Of a stretch of DNA of 64,000 nucleotides, positions 6,833-17,907 are shown piece by piece. Within the stretch, counting starts at the first letter, position 1. Each line of letters starts with the position of its first letter. The notes under the pieces are model-generated. The model did not search any database. It was not told the origin of the DNA and saw only the letters and a list, made by a program, of their open reading frames with translations. Source of the DNA: Diplonema papillatum (lineage: Eukaryota; Euglenozoa; Diplonemea; Diplonemida; Diplonemidae); the NCBI GenBank assembly GCA_030068145.1, contig JAPJBO010000052.1, positions 372,001 to 436,000 of the forward strand. The letters run 5' to 3'. Both the position numbers and the translations under genes were made by a program.

Positions 6833-6990
6833 GCGGGTGCCTAGCCTTCAGACGATTGATGAGGCGGTGGCAGATTTCTTGGTCCCGGGTACCCTCCAGT
6901 GCACATCCGTGCCGTAGGCGGCTGATTCTTGCGCGCTGATCTTTGGCTTCTCTTCTCTTTTGCGTCGGTCCATTGGGATAGAGCCATTGG

Positions 6991-7648
6991 GAAAATCCCA
7001 GAGTCCCGCGAGGCGAATGCGAGCAGCCAGGCATCGTGAGCCGGCCCGCCGCAGCCAGTTGTGTTAGATTGAAGCCAACTCGGGCCTTCGCCAGTTGAGC
7101 TGGAGTCTTGGCTGACTGATTCGGTAGCCAGGAGGACCGATCTCCCCAACTGAGGCAGCCGCCGGGCAGCCAACTTCGCCGGTCAGCTCGTTCCCAAGGT
7201 ACCAGCAAGCCAGCTAAGGAGAGCTAACCGTGAATGATCCTTTGATTGGTGTGACATGAATTAAACGGATGTTAAATTGGCGGATGGAGAAGGAACAACG
7301 GCTCCGAGTGACTCTCTCCAAGGAGGCAATTTAATAGGTGTTTAATTCAGCTAATCCCGAGCAAAGCCCCGGCAGGAGCGCGGATCTCCACCAAACCGGA
7401 TCAGTCATTTGTTTCTCCCCCGAAGGAAATAATGACATGGGATGTTGCACGGTTAGACGGCATGAGGACGGGTTTCACGGACCCCGAGTGGGAGGCTCTG
7501 GTCGCGGAGCTGCCAGAGGGCATGTCCCTGACCTCCTTCCGTGTGTTGCCGTGCTGGGCGCTTCCCGAGCCGCGGCCGGCCGAGGAAGTCGACAAGCGCT
7601 TTCGCAGCATGGTGGCAGAGCTAGGAGCGGGGCCCCGCGAACGGGGTC
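6991..7648 (+). repeat. 658-bp direct repeat, copy 1 (DIRS fossil)
   Basis: This copy is repeated at 8883-9540 at an offset of 1,892 bases. It includes the 82-bp terminal core and the first part of the tyrosine recombinase ORF. Confidence 0.9.
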
Positions 7649-8760: not shown

Positions 8761-8882
8761 GTAGGTCGGTCCTCCTCGGGGTTCGTATGAAGCTCCCTGC
8801 GTCCCACCCTTCCCTCTCTCCCCACTCCCCCGCAGTGGATCAAGGTTAGTCTCCCTGGCTTGCTGAGCTTGACCGGCGGAGG

Positions 8883-9540
8883 GAAAATCCCAGAGTCCCG
8901 CGAGGCGAATGCGAGCAGCCAGGCATCGTGAGCCGGCCCGCCGCAGCCAGTTGTGTTAGATTGAAGCCAACTCGGGCCTTCGCCAGTTGAGCTGGAGTCT
9001 TGGCTGACTGATTCGGTAGCCAGGAGGACCGATCTCCCCAACTGAGGCAGCCGCCGGGCAGCCAACTTCGCCGGTCAGCTCGTTCCCAAGGTACCAGCAA
9101 GCCAGCTAAGGAGAGCTAACCGTGAATGATCCTTTGATTGGTGTGACATGAATTAAACGGATGTTAAATTGGCGGATGGAGAAGGAACAACGGCTCCGAG
9201 TGACTCTCTCCAAGGAGGCAATTTAATAGGTGTTTAATTCAGCTAATCCCGAGCAAAGCCCCGGCAGGAGCGCGGATCTCCACCAAACCGGATCAGTCAT
9301 TTGTTTCTCCCCCGAAGGAAATAATGACATGGGATGTTGCACGGTTAGACGGCATGAGGACGGGTTTCACGGACCCCGAGTGGGAGGCTCTGGTCGCGGA
9401 GCTGCCAGAGGGCATGTCTCTGACCTCCTTCCGTGTGTTGCCGTGCTGGGCGCTTCCCGAGCCGCGGCCGGCCGAGGAAGTCGACAAGCGCTTTCGCAGC
9501 ATGGTGGCAGAGCTAGGAGCGGGGCCCCGCGAACGGGGTC
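8883..9540 (+). repeat. 658-bp direct repeat, copy 2 (DIRS fossil)
   Basis: Nearly identical to 6991-7648. It stops abruptly at 9540, where a G-tract sequence (attatgcg followed by 10 to 11 G) related to the R3 end at 17130 begins. Confidence 0.9.
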
Positions 9541-10173: not shown

Positions 10174-10835
10174 CCCCTGGATTGTAGGTCTACCCCCCCT
10201 TTACTTGAGTGATTACGGACTGGAGTGAGCGAAACCTCGCAAACAACAAAAAGGTGGTTGTCAGAAACACCAAATACACTTCAGTGAGGTTCATCTTCTT
10301 TGTCACAGACACTCTGCCTTGCATGAATTAATGCAGGTTGACTATTGCCGTTTCACAGCCAAAGACGACAGACTCAGTCCACGAAGGAATCGTGTAGGGA
10401 GGGATCTTTCCAGTAGAGTCCTTTGCAAGGACCAGGCACAAGAACCGCTCAGCGTCTCGTTTGATTTGCCCGTTCGCTAGTGTAGGTCTCATTCGTCAGC
10501 CCACTAGTGTTGTCTGTACTGAGAATACACTGCTATCGTATGCATGTTTCTTGTGACATTTTACAGTACACGAGCGCAGCCATCGTGCGCAGAACCAGGG
10601 AAGCCTCGCAGTCGACAGTCGCAAAGAAAGGGGATTTACCAAGCCAGGCACCGCACTCTTGCATAACAGCAAACCTTTGTTGCAAACTCATACCCACCCC
10701 AGCAAGTTGTTAACATAAACGTTGCTCCCCAGCTAGGCCCTGGAGGCAGTGGCTCAAGAATGAATCCGCGCTGTACAAATCCCACAGTAACAAATGATCA
10801 GGCAATCCCACCCAAAGGGGAGGCGGGGAGGTACC

Positions 10836-13781
10836 ATGGAAGCGCGACTCAGCAGATTGCGCGTCAAACGTGTACAAGGTACTTCGATCACTCGATGTTG
10901 GATTGCGGTCCCCAGCACCGCAGAACGGGTGATGGATTTACAAAGGTCCATGGCGTTGGCCTTCGGCGTACCGAAAAGGTCGCTGCTTCTGAGTATCGAA
11001 GGATTCGACTTGCCACCATCACAGCCGATTAACATAATCCGCGAAAACGATGTGGTCGTGGCACGTTTGCTGCTCGAGGACCCGATGCTATCCGAATCTT
11101 CGGGGCGGAAGCGCAAACGATCCAGCCAGGGGAAACTTGTCGTTCCTCCCCAGATGGACAACAACCGAGTTGACTCGATACACTCGGGAAACGGTGACGA
11201 AGTGCGTAAGCAACGGAGAAAGTGCTCCAAAGCCAGTACGGATACCGGCAAGCTCGACAGCACCGCACTCATGAGGCTCGATGAGAAGCATTTGCGAGTC
11301 CCAGGTTCAGAGAGAAAAAGTACGGCCGGTGCACCAGGGTATGGCACTGTGGCCTCGTCGAAGAACAAGCAAAATCGGAATCCTGGAAAAGCATTGTCGA
11401 AACTGGCTAGCGAAGAACATCAGCAAGACGATCGGAGAACAAAGCTGGCCGATCTGTCTCCCGTGGCCGCTGTCAGGCACTCTTCTGAAGGAGAAACGAA
11501 ATTAGAGAACAAGAAAAGAAGATCTGACATCACAGCGTCGGGTCGGGAATCGATCGACAAGGAGACACCTGGCAGTATACAAGGTGTCGAGCCACCTGGT
11601 TCCGCTCCTCCAGATTCGAGCGATCCTCGGCAAGGCAAACCTCTTCGAACCCAAGCTTCGACCGTTTCAAAATTGTTGAACCCAGCAGAAGTTGGCAGTG
11701 TAGCAAAAGGCGACAAGGTTGGAGGTACGCAAGACGGGGAAAGCGAAAACCTAGAAACCGCAAAGGAAGCCGCATTAAAGAGACTGCTTGGGGCCCGGGA
11801 CTGCGGCCGCATCAGAAAAGAAGAGAAATCCGCGTGGACGGAGCAAATACCGAATCTTTCAAGCAAAACAGAATCACCGTCGGTAGCCGAACAGTTGCGT
11901 GAGCAGCTTGCAGAGCTAGTTGAAGTAGTGCCAACAGCAAAGCCATGCATGCTGACTAGGGAAAATGCCATCCCGGGCATGTTCGTAAACTATTCAGTAG
12001 CAGAGCTTTCCTTCGATGGCGGAGGCGTCAAGCGGCTGCTAAATGAGTACTCCTGTGCGTTAGTTATCTCCCGCGCGAAAGATATCCTGACCATCCGACG
12101 CGCCGATGAAACACTTGATACCATTCACTTTGACAACATGGTGAACCCTACTATTGCACACGACGCCCAACCACCGCTTCCTGCCGGCCCACCTCCGTCA
12201 CGAGTCGTCGCTAGTGCAGTTAGCCCTCCTGAACGCGCAGCACGAAAAGCCTGCGCTCCACAATCGACGGGCATTAGAGCTGACACGCAAGATGGTGTTT
12301 CTGCAAACGCGGCCGCGTCTCACACACAAGCTACCTCCATGCAATCGCGCTTAGCGAACGCACCCGTTGCATCGCTGTCTACTAACAGCGAAGAAGACAC
12401 GACTCCAACAAGGTCCTCACAGAAGGGTGAGCTCCTCAATCCGCAAAAAAGCGACTGCGGATCAAACAAGGCACCATCTCGGGAGAAATTGGCCGGAGAA
12501 CCAAACAGCTCACAACCGATGGTCGGCAAAGTTAAGCGTTGGCTTACTTCAAAATATTTCGGGTTCATTACCACCAAGGATCATGGTGATGTGTTCACGT
12601 ATTGGAAGGCATTAGTAGGCGGGGATTGCTTAGAGGAAGGGAAGTCGGTTGAAATTCACGTTGAGCTCGATGAAGCAGGGAAGATGAGGGCTTCGCGGGT
12701 AAGCGGGGAGGCTGTGCAATGGGTTGATGGCGGAAAAGGAAGGGGGGCAAACTGCACGCGGCGGACATTCAAGGCTAAAGGGGATAACTTCTTGAAGGTG
12801 ACAGGGTTGCGGTCGTGGTGTCGTGCCGGAAAGCTCGCTGACGAAGTAGTTCAGGTGTTTGGTTTGGACGCAGTTGGATTTGTCGATATAGATGAGGATA
12901 CGGGCATCGGCTGGGTGCCGTTGCAGGACAAGTCGGCTGCAGAGAAAATCGGCGTGAAAGAAGTGCCTTGGGAGGCCATTTGCCCTGATTTGGCGGACGA
13001 TCACAGCAGGAACGGTGGGAACCACGACACCGGTGTTGTAGTAGTGACTGCATGCCCCGAAAGACTGAATACCGGACAACTCGCATCTACCCTATGCCAG
13101 GTGCTTGATGTAGACCGTGTAGGCTACGTTGATGTCAATCGAGCAGCCGGCTACGCCTCCATTCCGATCCAAAAGGCGTCTTCTCCCACCTTCAACTCCC
13201 TCGTCCGTCATAGAGGCATGGTCTTCATCACGCCGTCCCGTCCTACCGTCTACCGACTCACTGTGACACACGCCGAGCTCCTAAGCGACGTGAATGCGCA
13301 AAACTGCCTAATGTGTCAAGCACCTGGCCACTCAGCAGCACACTGCCCAAAGCGACCCGAATCACTCAGCCGCAGTTTGAAAGAAGTCGTATCGAACGAT
13401 ATCCACATGGAAACCAGATCTTTAGCTTCAAAAGACACACAATTCATGACCCCCCAACGCGCCAGCCCACGCAGCTCTCCGCAGACCGCTTCCCCCGTGC
13501 CTGTACCTCCTCCTGCCCCACCGTCACCACCTCTTAGTACCACAATCGCAGACGGGCCCAAAAAGCTCCCCGGCATCCTTTGCGAGCCTATCCGGTCGCA
13601 AGTTGCGCCTCCGACGCCCCCGCCAACGACACCGCCGCCGAGACAACGATCCTTCGTCGCTGGGAGCAAGTATGCCGGCTTTCACTCAAGCACCAACTCG
13701 TGCCCGGTCAGCAAGGACCATCTGTTGTTCATGTTTCAGACAGGGGGACGGACGGTTGGTGATGATCTTGATGATCCATAG
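10836..13781 (+). CDS. Coilin-like protein with cold-shock, RRM-like and CCHC modules
   Basis: Coilin scaffolds Cajal bodies, where spliceosomal snRNPs mature. The ATG at 10836 (accATGGaa, good context) is preferred over the in-frame ATG at 10794; the protein has 981 residues. Residues 3-75 match the coilin N-terminal self-association fold (LLLSIEGFDLPP, then IRENDVVVARL). Basic nuclear signals follow (GRKRKRSS, RKQRRK). Residues about 375-438 resemble the coilin C-terminal Tudor-like domain (NYSVAELSFDGG). Beyond the normal coilin end come a cold-shock domain at about 561-635 (GKVKRWLTSKYFGFITT), two alpha/beta repeats resembling RRMs (VGFVDIDEDTG and VGYVDVNRAAG), a CCHC knuckle at about 824-837 (CLMCQAPGHSAAHC) and a proline-rich tail. 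Single exon as read. The coilin assignment rests on motif reading; the extra RNA-binding part is plain in the sequence. Confidence 0.75.
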   Translation: MEARLSRLRVKRVQGTSITRCWIAVPSTAERVMDLQRSMALAFGVPKRSLLLSIEGFDLPPSQPINIIRENDVVVARLLLEDPMLSESSGRKRKRSSQGKLVVPPQMDNNRVDSIHSGNGDEVRKQRRKCSKASTDTGKLDSTALMRLDEKHLRVPGSERKSTAGAPGYGTVASSKNKQNRNPGKALSKLASEEHQQDDRRTKLADLSPVAAVRHSSEGETKLENKKRRSDITASGRESIDKETPGSIQGVEPPGSAPPDSSDPRQGKPLRTQASTVSKLLNPAEVGSVAKGDKVGGTQDGESENLETAKEAALKRLLGARDCGRIRKEEKSAWTEQIPNLSSKTESPSVAEQLREQLAELVEVVPTAKPCMLTRENAIPGMFVNYSVAELSFDGGGVKRLLNEYSCALVISRAKDILTIRRADETLDTIHFDNMVNPTIAHDAQPPLPAGPPPSRVVASAVSPPERAARKACAPQSTGIRADTQDGVSANAAASHTQATSMQSRLANAPVASLSTNSEEDTTPTRSSQKGELLNPQKSDCGSNKAPSREKLAGEPNSSQPMVGKVKRWLTSKYFGFITTKDHGDVFTYWKALVGGDCLEEGKSVEIHVELDEAGKMRASRVSGEAVQWVDGGKGRGANCTRRTFKAKGDNFLKVTGLRSWCRAGKLADEVVQVFGLDAVGFVDIDEDTGIGWVPLQDKSAAEKIGVKEVPWEAICPDLADDHSRNGGNHDTGVVVVTACPERLNTGQLASTLCQVLDVDRVGYVDVNRAAGYASIPIQKASSPTFNSLVRHRGMVFITPSRPTVYRLTVTHAELLSDVNAQNCLMCQAPGHSAAHCPKRPESLSRSLKEVVSNDIHMETRSLASKDTQFMTPQRASPRSSPQTASPVPVPPPAPPSPPLSTTIADGPKKLPGILCEPIRSQVAPPTPPPTTPPPRQRSFVAGSKYAGFHSSTNSCPVSKDHLLFMFQTGGRTVGDDLDDP

Positions 13782-14079
13782 GAATGCCGCCTCCCTGATG
13801 ACCGATGAACTATAAGGTCGACGTAGAACGACTATCACCCAAGTACCCCCGAAAATATACAATGGACACCGAATCACAACGTTGTGAGAAATCGCCTGAC
13901 ATGAGCAGCTTCCACCCTCTTCCGTATAAACATACTTCGAGCTTCTTCCCCGACGGAGACTCTAAACTACCAACCCCAAGTACTGCGCAAATTAACCCCC
14001 CCCCGTGCGTTCAAGAGCGAAACCAGAGACACGTCGTTGTAGGGGCCTTCTCCCTGTGACGGATTCGCCTGTGCTCTCG
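13782..14079. other. 3' flank of the coilin-like gene, no gene seen
   Basis: This holds a relic of the accggagact..taccaacc repeat (about 13957-13985) and the first of two copies of a 28-bp phrase (about 14006-14033; second copy about 14287-14314). Confidence 0.5.
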
Positions 14080-14286
14080 TAGCACGGGTGGTCCTGGCTG
14101 TGACGAGCTACGAACAGCCGCCTGACAAACCAGACTCACACCGCTGTCCTGTCTGCAGACACTCAGGTTCCGCGCTGATGATGGTCCGCCTTATGTGTCC
14201 GTGGCTTAAAGGACCGAAACACGGCGCAGACGGGACCAGTGCGGTGTTGAGCACATACCCATTCCAAGCACGTTCTTGCAATCCCC
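14080..14286 (+). repeat. Dispersed repeat R1, fullest copy (about 207 bp)
   Basis: The repeat begins tagcacgggtggtcctggct and ends acgttcttgcaatccccc. Related copies lie at about 44960-45119, 47217-47299, 47341-47433, 56655-56740, 56946-56995 and 63271-63395, and inverted at about 61856-62045. The size and the shared ends fit a short non-autonomous element, either a SINE or a MITE. No clear Pol III box A and B pair was found, so the class is open. Confidence 0.8.
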
Positions 14287-14889
14287 CGTGCGTTCAAGAG
14301 CGAAACCAGAGACAAAGAACGAGGTGCACACAACACCGCGGTGAAAAAAGAATAAAGAGGAATAGTCCCTCAAGGTTCCAGACCCAGCCTGCGGAGTCTT
14401 ACACTCCCTGCGACCCTTTTCCCCTTTCCCCTATTTTATTTTACACTTTCTTCGACGAAGACTTGATGCTAGCATCAAACATGCATGCGAGGCAGTGGTC
14501 TGCCTAAACATTAAACTAAGTTTTTCCCCCCGCTTAGCTTTGTTAACAATACTCGGTTATCCCCTGTATTGTTAACCTTTTGGTGCACCCGACCATATTG
14601 CAGTACAAACCGTGCAAATGGACGCAATATTTCTGTGGCGCGCTGCACGAGCTTCAAGCCGAACGCTCACTGAAGGAAATGCGCGTCCGCAGGACGAGTG
14701 CTCGCAGTCATGCTCATCGTCAATGACCGATGACGCTGAAGTAGATGTCTTCACTGACAAACTGGCTTGATTCTAATGGTCAGCGAGCTACATGAAGAAC
14801 CTGATGACAACACTGAGATCCAAGCAATATCGATGCCCTTTCACAGACCAGCCACAGTCAACGCCGCGTGGGTGAACTTTACATACTGA

Positions 14890-16800
14890 CTATTGGCTAT
14901 AAACAACTACATGGAGGCAAGTTCCTGGAAACGGCACTGTGACGGGGTGAAGAAGCTGTCCTGCCGTCGGAAGCCATTCTCAAGATCGCAGATGGACGAC
15001 TGGGTTGACGTGGCAGCTGCCCGTCCTGAATGCGTGTCGATTCTCTCGCGGTCGTACTGTCTTTCGGCATAAGTGAGATCGGGCACATCAATTTGAAATT
15101 CGATGCCAAGAAGTGTTGCTTGCGACGGTTGAGGTAGCCGAGCGGGGCGAACTATGAACGGGATTGGCTGTGGCAGCCTGAGCAGAACCGGCAACAACCT
15201 TGGCGAGAAGCTATCGCTTTTGTGCGGCTGTCTGCGTTGACCTGCTCAAGCAGCAGACACGCACGTTTGTGTGTGCGAAGGACCTGTTTTGTATCTTTAC
15301 ATGGCAGGTTCCAACACCGCCAACTTTCTTTTTTGTACTGACATGTCCAGCGTGGTATGCATCAGGGGATTAGCTTCTATATCCACATTTCGACTGTCAG
15401 TCCAAATTTGGAAAGGCCGCCGAGAAAAAAGAAATAAGCCGCTGCCTCATTTCTCGCTTGAGCTTTCCGACCGTGCCTTCGACCAGGGATGGTGTTACAG
15501 GACGCGGAGCAGAGGGGTCTTCCTGAGGGCAAAACCTTTGTACTCCAAGATGAACGCGCAGGCTGCGTGGTGCAGCAGGCCTTTCAGAAAAGCAGTCGGA
15601 AAGTGGGGTGATCGCCCGAGACGAAGTGCCTTTGCTCCATAGTACTTTCCAATTCCGTGACGTACAACACCGTCGGGAAGGTTGGCGTTCACTTGTGTCA
15701 CTGCTTCGGGATCGGGGTATGGTTGTCTGCCACGACAGGGTCTCAGGTGTGACCCGACATTCCTGAGGAACACCCGGCACAGTTTCCCTACGTCGCACCA
15801 TTCTCGCAATGTCTGCTTTCATTGCAACGATGGACAAACTTGAAAACAGCGATTTCACGATGCCAACCGTGAATATGGGGTTTGTGTGATTACCATCAGC
15901 AAACCCCCACAGAGCTCTGAAGAAAGGGTACACAACAAGAGCGAAGCCTAGACCCAGCCTGCGATCTGTAGTCTGAGCAGCTTGCTTCCCTAAGCGGTGC
16001 ACGTTCGTCTTGGCAGATGACTGCGATACCATCCAGGGAACTTACCGAAGAACACGAGTAGCAACTCAAGTACCGACTTTCCCGAGTTTCCAACATGGGC
16101 ACTCATGCAGAACGCAGCAGCCCATGCAGGGCCAAACCTGCCGAGTGTGGCACTGCCACAAGAACCCCTTGACCTCTTGAATGCTGTATTCGGCGGCAAG
16201 CCATTCCTGTAAACTCTGGACCGACTGACGTAATTTGCGGCCTGGCATACAGCCTTTGTCTCCTTCTCAAAGTGAAGCGACGAGATCGCTGATGTGGCAA
16301 CCCGGTGCATGCGGTGGACAACTTCAAAGACCAGCGTGCACGCGAATCCACCTAGAGCAGCACCCCCATCGACATACACGACACAAAACGGTCTCGCCCA
16401 AATGAGGCTTCCTCGTCCAGTACACTCAACGCAATCAGTTTGTCTGTCAACTTCGCGAAGTACTGAATCATCTTCTGGATGATACCAGTGACGGCATGTG
16501 ATGTGAACGTCGAGGTGATTCTCCCTTCATCGTTTTTCCATGTCGCTGTAAATTGGCCACCGGCCCGTTGCGAAGCCGGGTCTAGTGCCCCAGTATCGAA
16601 CTGCAGGGCGACATTGCAGTTTTGGGTTTCCTTCAGGAACTCCATACTCGCGAGACTAGGTTCAAGGCCCAGATCTCTTCGACGCGCCGACGAGACACCT
16701 TGCCTACCCGCTCGTGCATGAGAATATCTACGACGGTGCGCAACCGTGTGTCGTCTGCTTCCTGGCTGCCAGCGACATAACGTCACTCGCACTCAACCAG
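14890..16800 (-). pseudogene. Decayed minus-strand coding sequence, family not recognised
   Basis: Protein-like pieces follow one another on the minus strand in different frames. They include one with ETQNCNVALQFDTGALDP (about 16600), one with VYVDGGAALGGFACTLVF (about 16370), one with WLAAEYSIQEVKGFLWQC (about 16190), one near 15700 and one with IEFQIDVPDLTYAERQYD (about 15100). The order and composition suggest one former gene or element with several breaks. VYVDGG is weakly reminiscent of an RNase H-type start, so it may be a mobile element fossil. I do not assign a family. Confidence 0.4.
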
Positions 16801-17907
16801 AACAGTTACGTCTAGGATGCGTGGGATGCCAAAGGAAAACGAAAGTGACAATGCACTCGAGTCTGGTCGAACAACATCGTCAGCCTCCATCACTTCTCCT
16901 TTCCTCTTGGCAAACCCCCGTTTTCACATTTCTTTCGCTCCCAGTGCTCAAATGTCATCAAAAGGCTGCATGAAAGGGTGCCGAAACCCGGGTGCCGGAA
17001 AAAATAATTTTTGGACACCCCTTTCGAGTTTTCCGTAGTTCTTCCGTAGTTCTACCATGGTTTCACCGTACTATATGGATCACACCATATATTTAATAAT
17101 ACGAGCTATTTAATAATACGAGCTATTTAACATTATGCGAGGGGGGGTTTAGTCTAAACACCACACTTTCTCAGGTTGTCGTCCGTCTCCAGTGCGCTTG
17201 CTGCATTTCAGAGAAGAGCTGCGGAGTAGTTGACCTTAGACACTGCCATCAAGAGGTTCCTTTCGATCGAAGGAATTCACTACCAGGTTGTCGACCAATC
17301 AACATCATTTGAGTCAGGGAGTGCCAGATGCTCTCAGTTTTCAAACGTCGATTTCTCTTGCTCCTGTCATTGCCAGTGTTATTGCTACCGCCGGAAGTCT
17401 GCAGACGGCTCTGACACACTCCCACGTCAGCTTCAACCTCGGCTGCTCCACTCAAGAGCAGAACGGATGATCCTGCTGCCAGTCAATGGACTCTTCGACG
17501 TGCCTGAGGCCCTGAAATGGAAGGAGAGGATAGTAACATTGGCCCTAGCCCCTTTATTTCTCAGCTTGGTTCTGCATCGCTGATCTCATGAGAGCAGCTC
17601 ATCTGAATGTTAACACCCTTTACTTTTGAGCTGTTGACAGCAGCGAATCAGGAATGGAATGACGACTTCGTCCACAGACCCCAGGACAACAAGCCTTCGG
17701 TTGGGACAGAGTCTGTGCAAGTCCTGCAGAGATGAACACGACGATTGGCTTCGCCAGCGCCAGTTTTGCACAGAAACCAGCGTCGGGTTCGGCCATTAGT
17801 TTTCACTGTCAGGGAGGGAGGTCCGTCGACGCGCATTGCGCGCGTCGAGGAAAAAGAGAAGCTAAAAGCACAAGCGCGCACCAGCGCTGGAAAAAGCGCG
17901 CTTCCGG
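16801..17907. other. No gene seen; inverted R3 repeat at 17088-17131
   Basis: The segment 17088-17131 is an inverted copy of the AT-rich repeat at 1258-1293, followed by attatgcgagggggggttta, the same kind of G-tract end found at 9541. Short frames around 17230-17580 and 17745-18005 are not recognisable. An upstream exon of the SNARE gene could lie in this region. Confidence 0.5.

Follow-up and report, generated by a model that had tools for sequence, protein, structure and literature searches.

A Diplonema papillatum gene predicted to join a coilin N-terminal domain to a cold-shock domain, a candidate divergent coilin-family scaffold

Diplonema papillatum is a marine unicellular relative of the trypanosomes. 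We analysed a window of 64,000 nucleotides of its genome (contig JAPJBO010000052.1, positions 372,001 to 436,000), and positions given here count from the first letter of that window. A long open frame lies on the forward strand, and the methionine codon at 10836 within it gives a product of 981 residues with the stop at 13781. Searching among 5.8 billion proteins, we found that the database counterpart is DIPPA_02326 from the same species, a protein of 962 residues labelled "hypothetical protein". The two sequences are identical over residues 1-945, after which their C-terminal ends diverge. The database record carries two Pfam domains, CSD and Coilin_N, and this is the same pair that we found in the open frame. 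The gene and its predicted parts are as follows:

10791-13781, + strand: open frame, 996 codons, uninterrupted
10836..13669, + strand: first coding exon (DIPPA_02326), covering residues 1-944 plus two bases of codon 945 (database identity, GT at 13670)
10836..11102, + strand: predicted N-terminal domain of coilin type, residues 1-89 (17-89 matched by Pfam in the isolated piece)
11106..11522, + strand: basic clusters, candidate nuclear localisation signals (RKRKR 91-95, RKQRRK 124-129 and KKRR 226-229; from the sequence)
11928..12170, + strand: the Tudor-like domain of the preliminary description, residues 365-445, unsupported
12519..12704, + strand: predicted cold-shock domain, residues 562-623 (KYFGFI at 573, DVFTYW at 585)
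12774..12983, + strand: tandem module, repeat 1, residues 647-716 (self-comparison, hhalign)
13023..13244, + strand: tandem module, repeat 2, residues 730-803 (self-comparison, hhalign)
13305..13346, + strand: CCHC motif CX2CX4HX4C, residues 824-837 (from the sequence, with weak profile matches only)
13670..17174, + strand: public-model intron of 3505 bases, GT-AG, beginning GTATGC and ending CTCAG
17175..17229, + strand: final coding exon in the public model, with KLSSVSSALAAFQRRAAE and a stop at its end

The public model exits the frame at 13670, inside codon 945, so that the last 36 residues of the window's reading frame are intronic in that model. The C-terminus of the database protein is instead LSSVSSALAAFQRRAAE, which is encoded at 17175-17229. 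The short tail of the reading frame past 13670 stays open in 3855 of 20000 shuffles, and its codon score is the best of the six frames. Either the stop at 13781 or the exon at 17175-17229 is possible as the 3' end of the gene, and the choice between these endings affects none of the domains discussed here. The public annotation of this genome is described as guided by assembled transcripts; the same paper reports that among 319 inspected models 125 had inaccurate structures and 68 were false positives (PMC10161547). Within the public-model intron, CCCCCGTGCGTTCAAGAG is present twice, at about 14003 and 14282, roughly 280 bases apart.

The N-terminus had been described as that of a coilin, and several comparisons bear this out. 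The Pfam model Coilin_N (PF15862) matched residues 17-131 of the whole protein at E 1.1e-9 (38.7 bits, cut-off 32.9). With the first 100 residues alone the match rose to 41.8 bits (E 1.3e-10), and Coilin_N was the sole Pfam family found up to E 10. A neighbouring protein in the window that contains a Pfam ubiquitin domain had no Coilin_N match at E 0.01 or better, and thus the score in DIPPA_02326 is not a generic signal of the ubiquitin fold. None of 2000 shuffles reached the score of the local alignment to human coilin. A profile of nine vertebrate coilins found the N-terminal piece at E 6.8e-7, the runner-up among ten pieces of the protein being at E 0.22, and comparison of this profile with the piece by hhalign gave a probability of 68% (E 4.7e-5), equalled by none of 200 shuffles. 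DIPPA_02326 keeps 22 of the 50 columns that are invariant among the nine vertebrate coilins versus 7 of 42 variable ones. Mutations in coilin have been reported to map self-association to R8 and D79 and the binding of Nopp140 to R36 (PMC9556525). R7, R31, D34 and D72 of DIPPA_02326 align with human R8, R36, D40 and D79; the pairing of R7 with R8 comes from the global alignment only, since the local alignment spans R36 and D79 and not R8. Sequence comparison with solved structures gave no match to the coilin domain up to E 10. Taken as a prediction from sequence, a genuine coilin N-terminal domain with matched functional residues is solid.

A cold-shock domain in the same frame, also part of the preliminary description, was recovered by the Pfam CSD model (E 2.8e-7, 30.8 bits, cut-off 27), in agreement with the database record. 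This region matches a Thermotoga cold-shock protein at E 2.1e-5 and retains two RNP-like aromatic motifs, the RNP1-like KYFGFI and the RNP2-like DVFTYW. In the Thermotoga alignment the tryptophan that precedes the bacterial RNP1 stands opposite an arginine, and a tryptophan is found one residue further along. We regard this domain too as a solid prediction. The methionine at 12519 opens the domain at the point where free cold-shock proteins begin, as if the coilin gene had gained an entire cold-shock gene.

The long region between these two domains carries basic clusters that may act as nuclear localisation signals. A single-sequence AlphaFold2 model of residues 1-455 had a mean pLDDT of 39.8 and was unusable; such a value is compatible with disorder and is no proof of it. 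DIPPA_02326 has no RG box like that of animal coilins, only six scattered RG or GR pairs. Residues 365-445 had been taken for the Tudor-like domain of coilin, an assignment that we do not accept. Neither the whole protein nor the piece 361-450 matched the Pfam coilin Tudor model (Tudor_Coilin, PF23086) up to E 10; as a control, human coilin matched this model at E 2.7e-16. The piece had no match among PDB sequences. Its comparisons with the vertebrate domain were no better than those of shuffled sequences: 1500 of 2000 shuffles did equally well in pairwise alignment with human coilin, as did 151 of 200 against a vertebrate Tudor profile (hmmsearch and hhalign) built from eight regions, P0114 having been omitted from the nine proteins as partial. 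When long gaps were allowed, 46 of 150 shuffles were equally good, and 906 of 2000 in the pairwise version. A strongly diverged Tudor domain would escape all of these tests.

Downstream of the cold-shock domain lies a module that is present twice. The two copies, at about 647-716 and 730-803, align with a local score of 77 that none of 5000 shuffles reached, and hhalign paired them at E 3.3e-7. Thus, the tandem duplication at residues 647-803 is real. Of the two RRM-like repeats that had been proposed here, the duplication stands and the RRM identity is not supported. By eye the units look strand-helix-strand-strand. No RRM profile in Pfam matched them up to E 10, NCBIfam gave no RRM support, and a profile of the two repeats had no match among PDB sequences. 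We also dropped an identity with the RNA-binding domain of DbpA, as 124 of 200 shuffles were equally good against the E. coli protein. A single-sequence AlphaFold2 model of residues 550-851 was unusable (mean pLDDT 31.5). The proposed CCHC knuckle fared in a similar way. Its residues C824, C827, H832 and C837 have the CX2CX4HX4C spacing exactly, and no zinc-finger profile passed its cut-off; the sole zinc-finger model found near the motif scored 10.9 bits with the whole protein and 13.6 bits with the piece, for a cut-off of 26.2. A match to retroviral nucleocapsid was weak (E 2.4).

We searched for copies of these parts in the D. papillatum assembly (271 Mb, 2910 contigs), matching exon by exon. 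With the whole protein as query, for which 47 of 67 first-look candidates were scored, we found one full match and ten others, all ten in the cold-shock region only (E 1.7e-5 to 9.0e-4). The cold-shock domain is therefore one of a wider family within this genome, and it could have been acquired from there. Four of the ten lie on one contig within about 17 kb (G000:C551:86831-104096), possibly a tandem family. The repeats and knuckle had no second match in the genome better than E 0.26. Within the reach of sequence searches, the duplicated module was not copied from another Diplonema gene.

Among the 5.8 billion proteins we found no relative with the same fusion beyond the Diplonema record, by a method that needs shared five-residue words and may miss some relatives. 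The coilin/cold-shock fusion thus rests on one species. A search with human coilin gave 402 candidates, of which 168 proteins had E 0.1 or better. No Pfam domain beyond Coilin_N and Tudor_Coilin was found in the 120 proteins listed of these 168, of which those labelled were from vertebrates. This search yielded no plant, fungal or protist coilins, and other protist coilins may carry a cold-shock domain.

DIPPA_02326 shares with animal and plant coilins (PF15862, PF23086) the N-terminal domain with its mapped residues and a long basic middle. It differs from them in having no recognisable Tudor domain or RG box and in adding the cold-shock domain, the duplicated module and the CCHC motif. A second point of comparison is Mug174 of fission yeast, which like DIPPA_02326 belongs to a unicellular organism. 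It is described as weakly similar to coilins at its ends, with a disordered middle that contains a nuclear localisation signal (PMC11347179). Experiments reported for Mug174 show condensates and an interaction with Tgs1 and U snRNAs (PMC11347179). Unlike in DIPPA_02326, a cold-shock domain is not mentioned for Mug174 in the text of that paper available to us. Other cold-shock proteins of Euglenozoa, namely CSD1-3 and RBP16 of Trypanosoma brucei and seven small mitochondrial proteins of Diplonema, have the same domain and handle RNA (PMC10270622; Diplonema mitochondrial proteome). RBP16 and the seven Diplonema proteins are mitochondrial, and the available text of these papers does not bring up coilin. 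In T. brucei, which belongs to the sister group, nuclear bodies tied to splicing and to spliced-leader RNA are described without a coilin homologue (PMC8748868), and the homologue is reported missing from this species (PMC8748868, PMC8311968). As stated in 2024, no coilin was known in unicellular organisms prior to Mug174 (PMC11347179). Our literature search found no report on a diplonemid coilin, on a coilin bearing a cold-shock domain or on DIPPA_02326 itself; the word "coilin" is absent from the main text of the papers on the spliceosomes of Euglena and diplonemids and of the Diplonema mitochondrial proteome paper.

The reading that we prefer, with a probability of about 0.6, is that DIPPA_02326 is a divergent scaffold of the coilin family, with a self-associating head, a nuclear location, an RNA-contacting tail composed of the cold-shock domain, the duplicated module and the CCHC motif, and a Tudor end that is absent or unrecognisable. 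In coilins of other species the N-terminal domain is reported to drive assembly and the C-terminal domain to bind the Sm ring of snRNPs (PMC9556525). In DIPPA_02326 the ubiquitin-like N-terminal domain would self-associate through a face formed by R7 and D72, and R31 would probably dock a partner resembling Nopp140. The basic middle region would carry the protein into the nucleus. Where other coilins have a Tudor end to grip the Sm ring, DIPPA_02326 would bind RNA through its tail, and the resulting condensate scaffold would hold its client RNA itself, most plausibly an snRNA, a snoRNA or the spliced-leader RNA. Nuclear location, self-assembly, RNA binding (including that by the duplicated module) and the identity of the client are all points that we infer from the domains and motifs. 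Every trans-spliced mRNA requires spliced-leader RNA. An snRNA, a snoRNA or the spliced-leader RNA as client would suit a euglenozoan; spliced-leader trans-splicing is described in Euglenozoa (PMC10161547), and the diplonemids studied are reported to possess nearly complete snRNP components (PMC12621601). To call direct RNA binding new for a coilin would be too strong a claim. In Arabidopsis, clusters of basic residues in the N-terminal and central domains of coilin are reported to bind RNA, and the protein multimerises in response to RNA (PMC3539977). The unusual points are that folded, candidate RNA-binding modules are attached to a coilin and that Euglenozoa have a coilin-type protein in the first place.

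The scaffold reading depends on the coilin and cold-shock parts belonging to one gene, as had been proposed, and we favour this. The single frame runs without interruption, and the transcript-guided public annotation agrees in modelling one protein. None of 2000 shuffles of the 981 codons remains open, and the linker at 445-560, which has no stop, would be open by chance in just 403 of 20000 shuffles. Coding scores are weak overall: frame 0 has the best codon score in 12 of 13 segments, often narrowly, and is beaten in the remaining one, residues 445-500, where the two halves of the reading frame adjoin. This loss is one reason to consider two products, a coilin and a separate cold-shock protein starting at the methionine at 12519, arising from an internal spliced-leader site or a mis-annotated boundary. 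Since the cold-shock domain starts with a methionine, exactly as free cold-shock proteins do, an internal spliced-leader site could yield the second product, and the high error rate of the annotation (PMC10161547) points the same way. The 120 bases upstream of the internal methionine are not poorer in pyrimidines than those before the annotated start (0.42 versus 0.43); values so nearly equal do not decide between one product and two. Weighing the long open frame and the public model against these points, we think that two products are improbable.

Even as a single gene, DIPPA_02326 could have another role. The most serious competitor to the scaffold reading holds that a coilin module was recruited as an oligomeriser into a protein of RNA regulation, whose tail would bind mRNA, with the long Diplonema 3'-UTRs as one candidate target, and which would have no part in organising Cajal bodies. 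The failure to detect a Tudor domain or an RG box would be expected of such a protein, and the folded tail is similar to cold-shock proteins that regulate RNA. Of the four cold-shock proteins reported in T. brucei, two drive development (PMC10270622), and the 3'-UTRs of Diplonema are described as exceptionally long (PMC10161547). The matched residues of the head, however, include the Nopp140-binding position besides those for self-association, and a bare oligomeriser has no need of it. We consider this recruitment unlikely, less so than two separate products. At the opposite extreme, the protein could be a full classical coilin to which the tail was added, with a C-terminal Tudor domain still present but diverged beyond recognition. 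The position of the Tudor-like region after a presumably disordered middle suits this idea and by eye its end, HFDNMVNPTI, is like the end of the vertebrate domain, whereas the Pfam, pairwise, profile and long-gap tests were all negative and the human control was readily recognised. This makes a hidden Tudor domain the least probable of the alternatives, and we consider it very unlikely.

Returning to a divergent coilin-family scaffold, a bolder version of it can be drawn for the group as a whole. Euglenozoa may have kept an ancestral coilin, the Tudor end of which was replaced by the tail in diplonemids; the scaffold would bind its client RNA, possibly the spliced-leader RNA, and nucleate a trans-splicing body akin to the coilin-less bodies of trypanosomes. 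This version is speculative and the odds are against it. Finding a coilin-domain protein in the sister group of the kinetoplastids would place the origin of coilin closer to the eukaryotic common ancestor; kinetoplastids would then either have lost coilin or have one that escaped detection. DIPPA_02326 gives a direct handle on whether a body built by coilin serves spliced-leader biogenesis. Published work describes Diplonema as amenable to genetic manipulation (PMC8611851), so that tagging and knockout are realistic.

Upstream of the gene, a direct repeat of 300 bases with 100% identity occupies 6989-7288 and 8881-9180. The open frames that follow the two copies, from 7312 and 9204, share the protein start LSPRRQFNRC. 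This region is probably a duplicated fragment of a mobile element; its recombinase-like look was judged by eye only, and the longer open frame had no Pfam match up to E 0.01. Downstream, a scan of the + strand placed these open frames, assigned by Pfam:

17866, + strand: SNARE-like, below the Pfam cut-off
20637, + strand: ubiquitin-like domain
23258, + strand: histidine phosphatase branch 2
33474, + strand: RING and B-box
41732, + strand: NSUN5-like rRNA methyltransferase
51443, + strand: alpha-kinase

The same-strand open frames from 17866 to 55414 would fit a co-transcribed group of the kind reported in Diplonema (PMC10161547).
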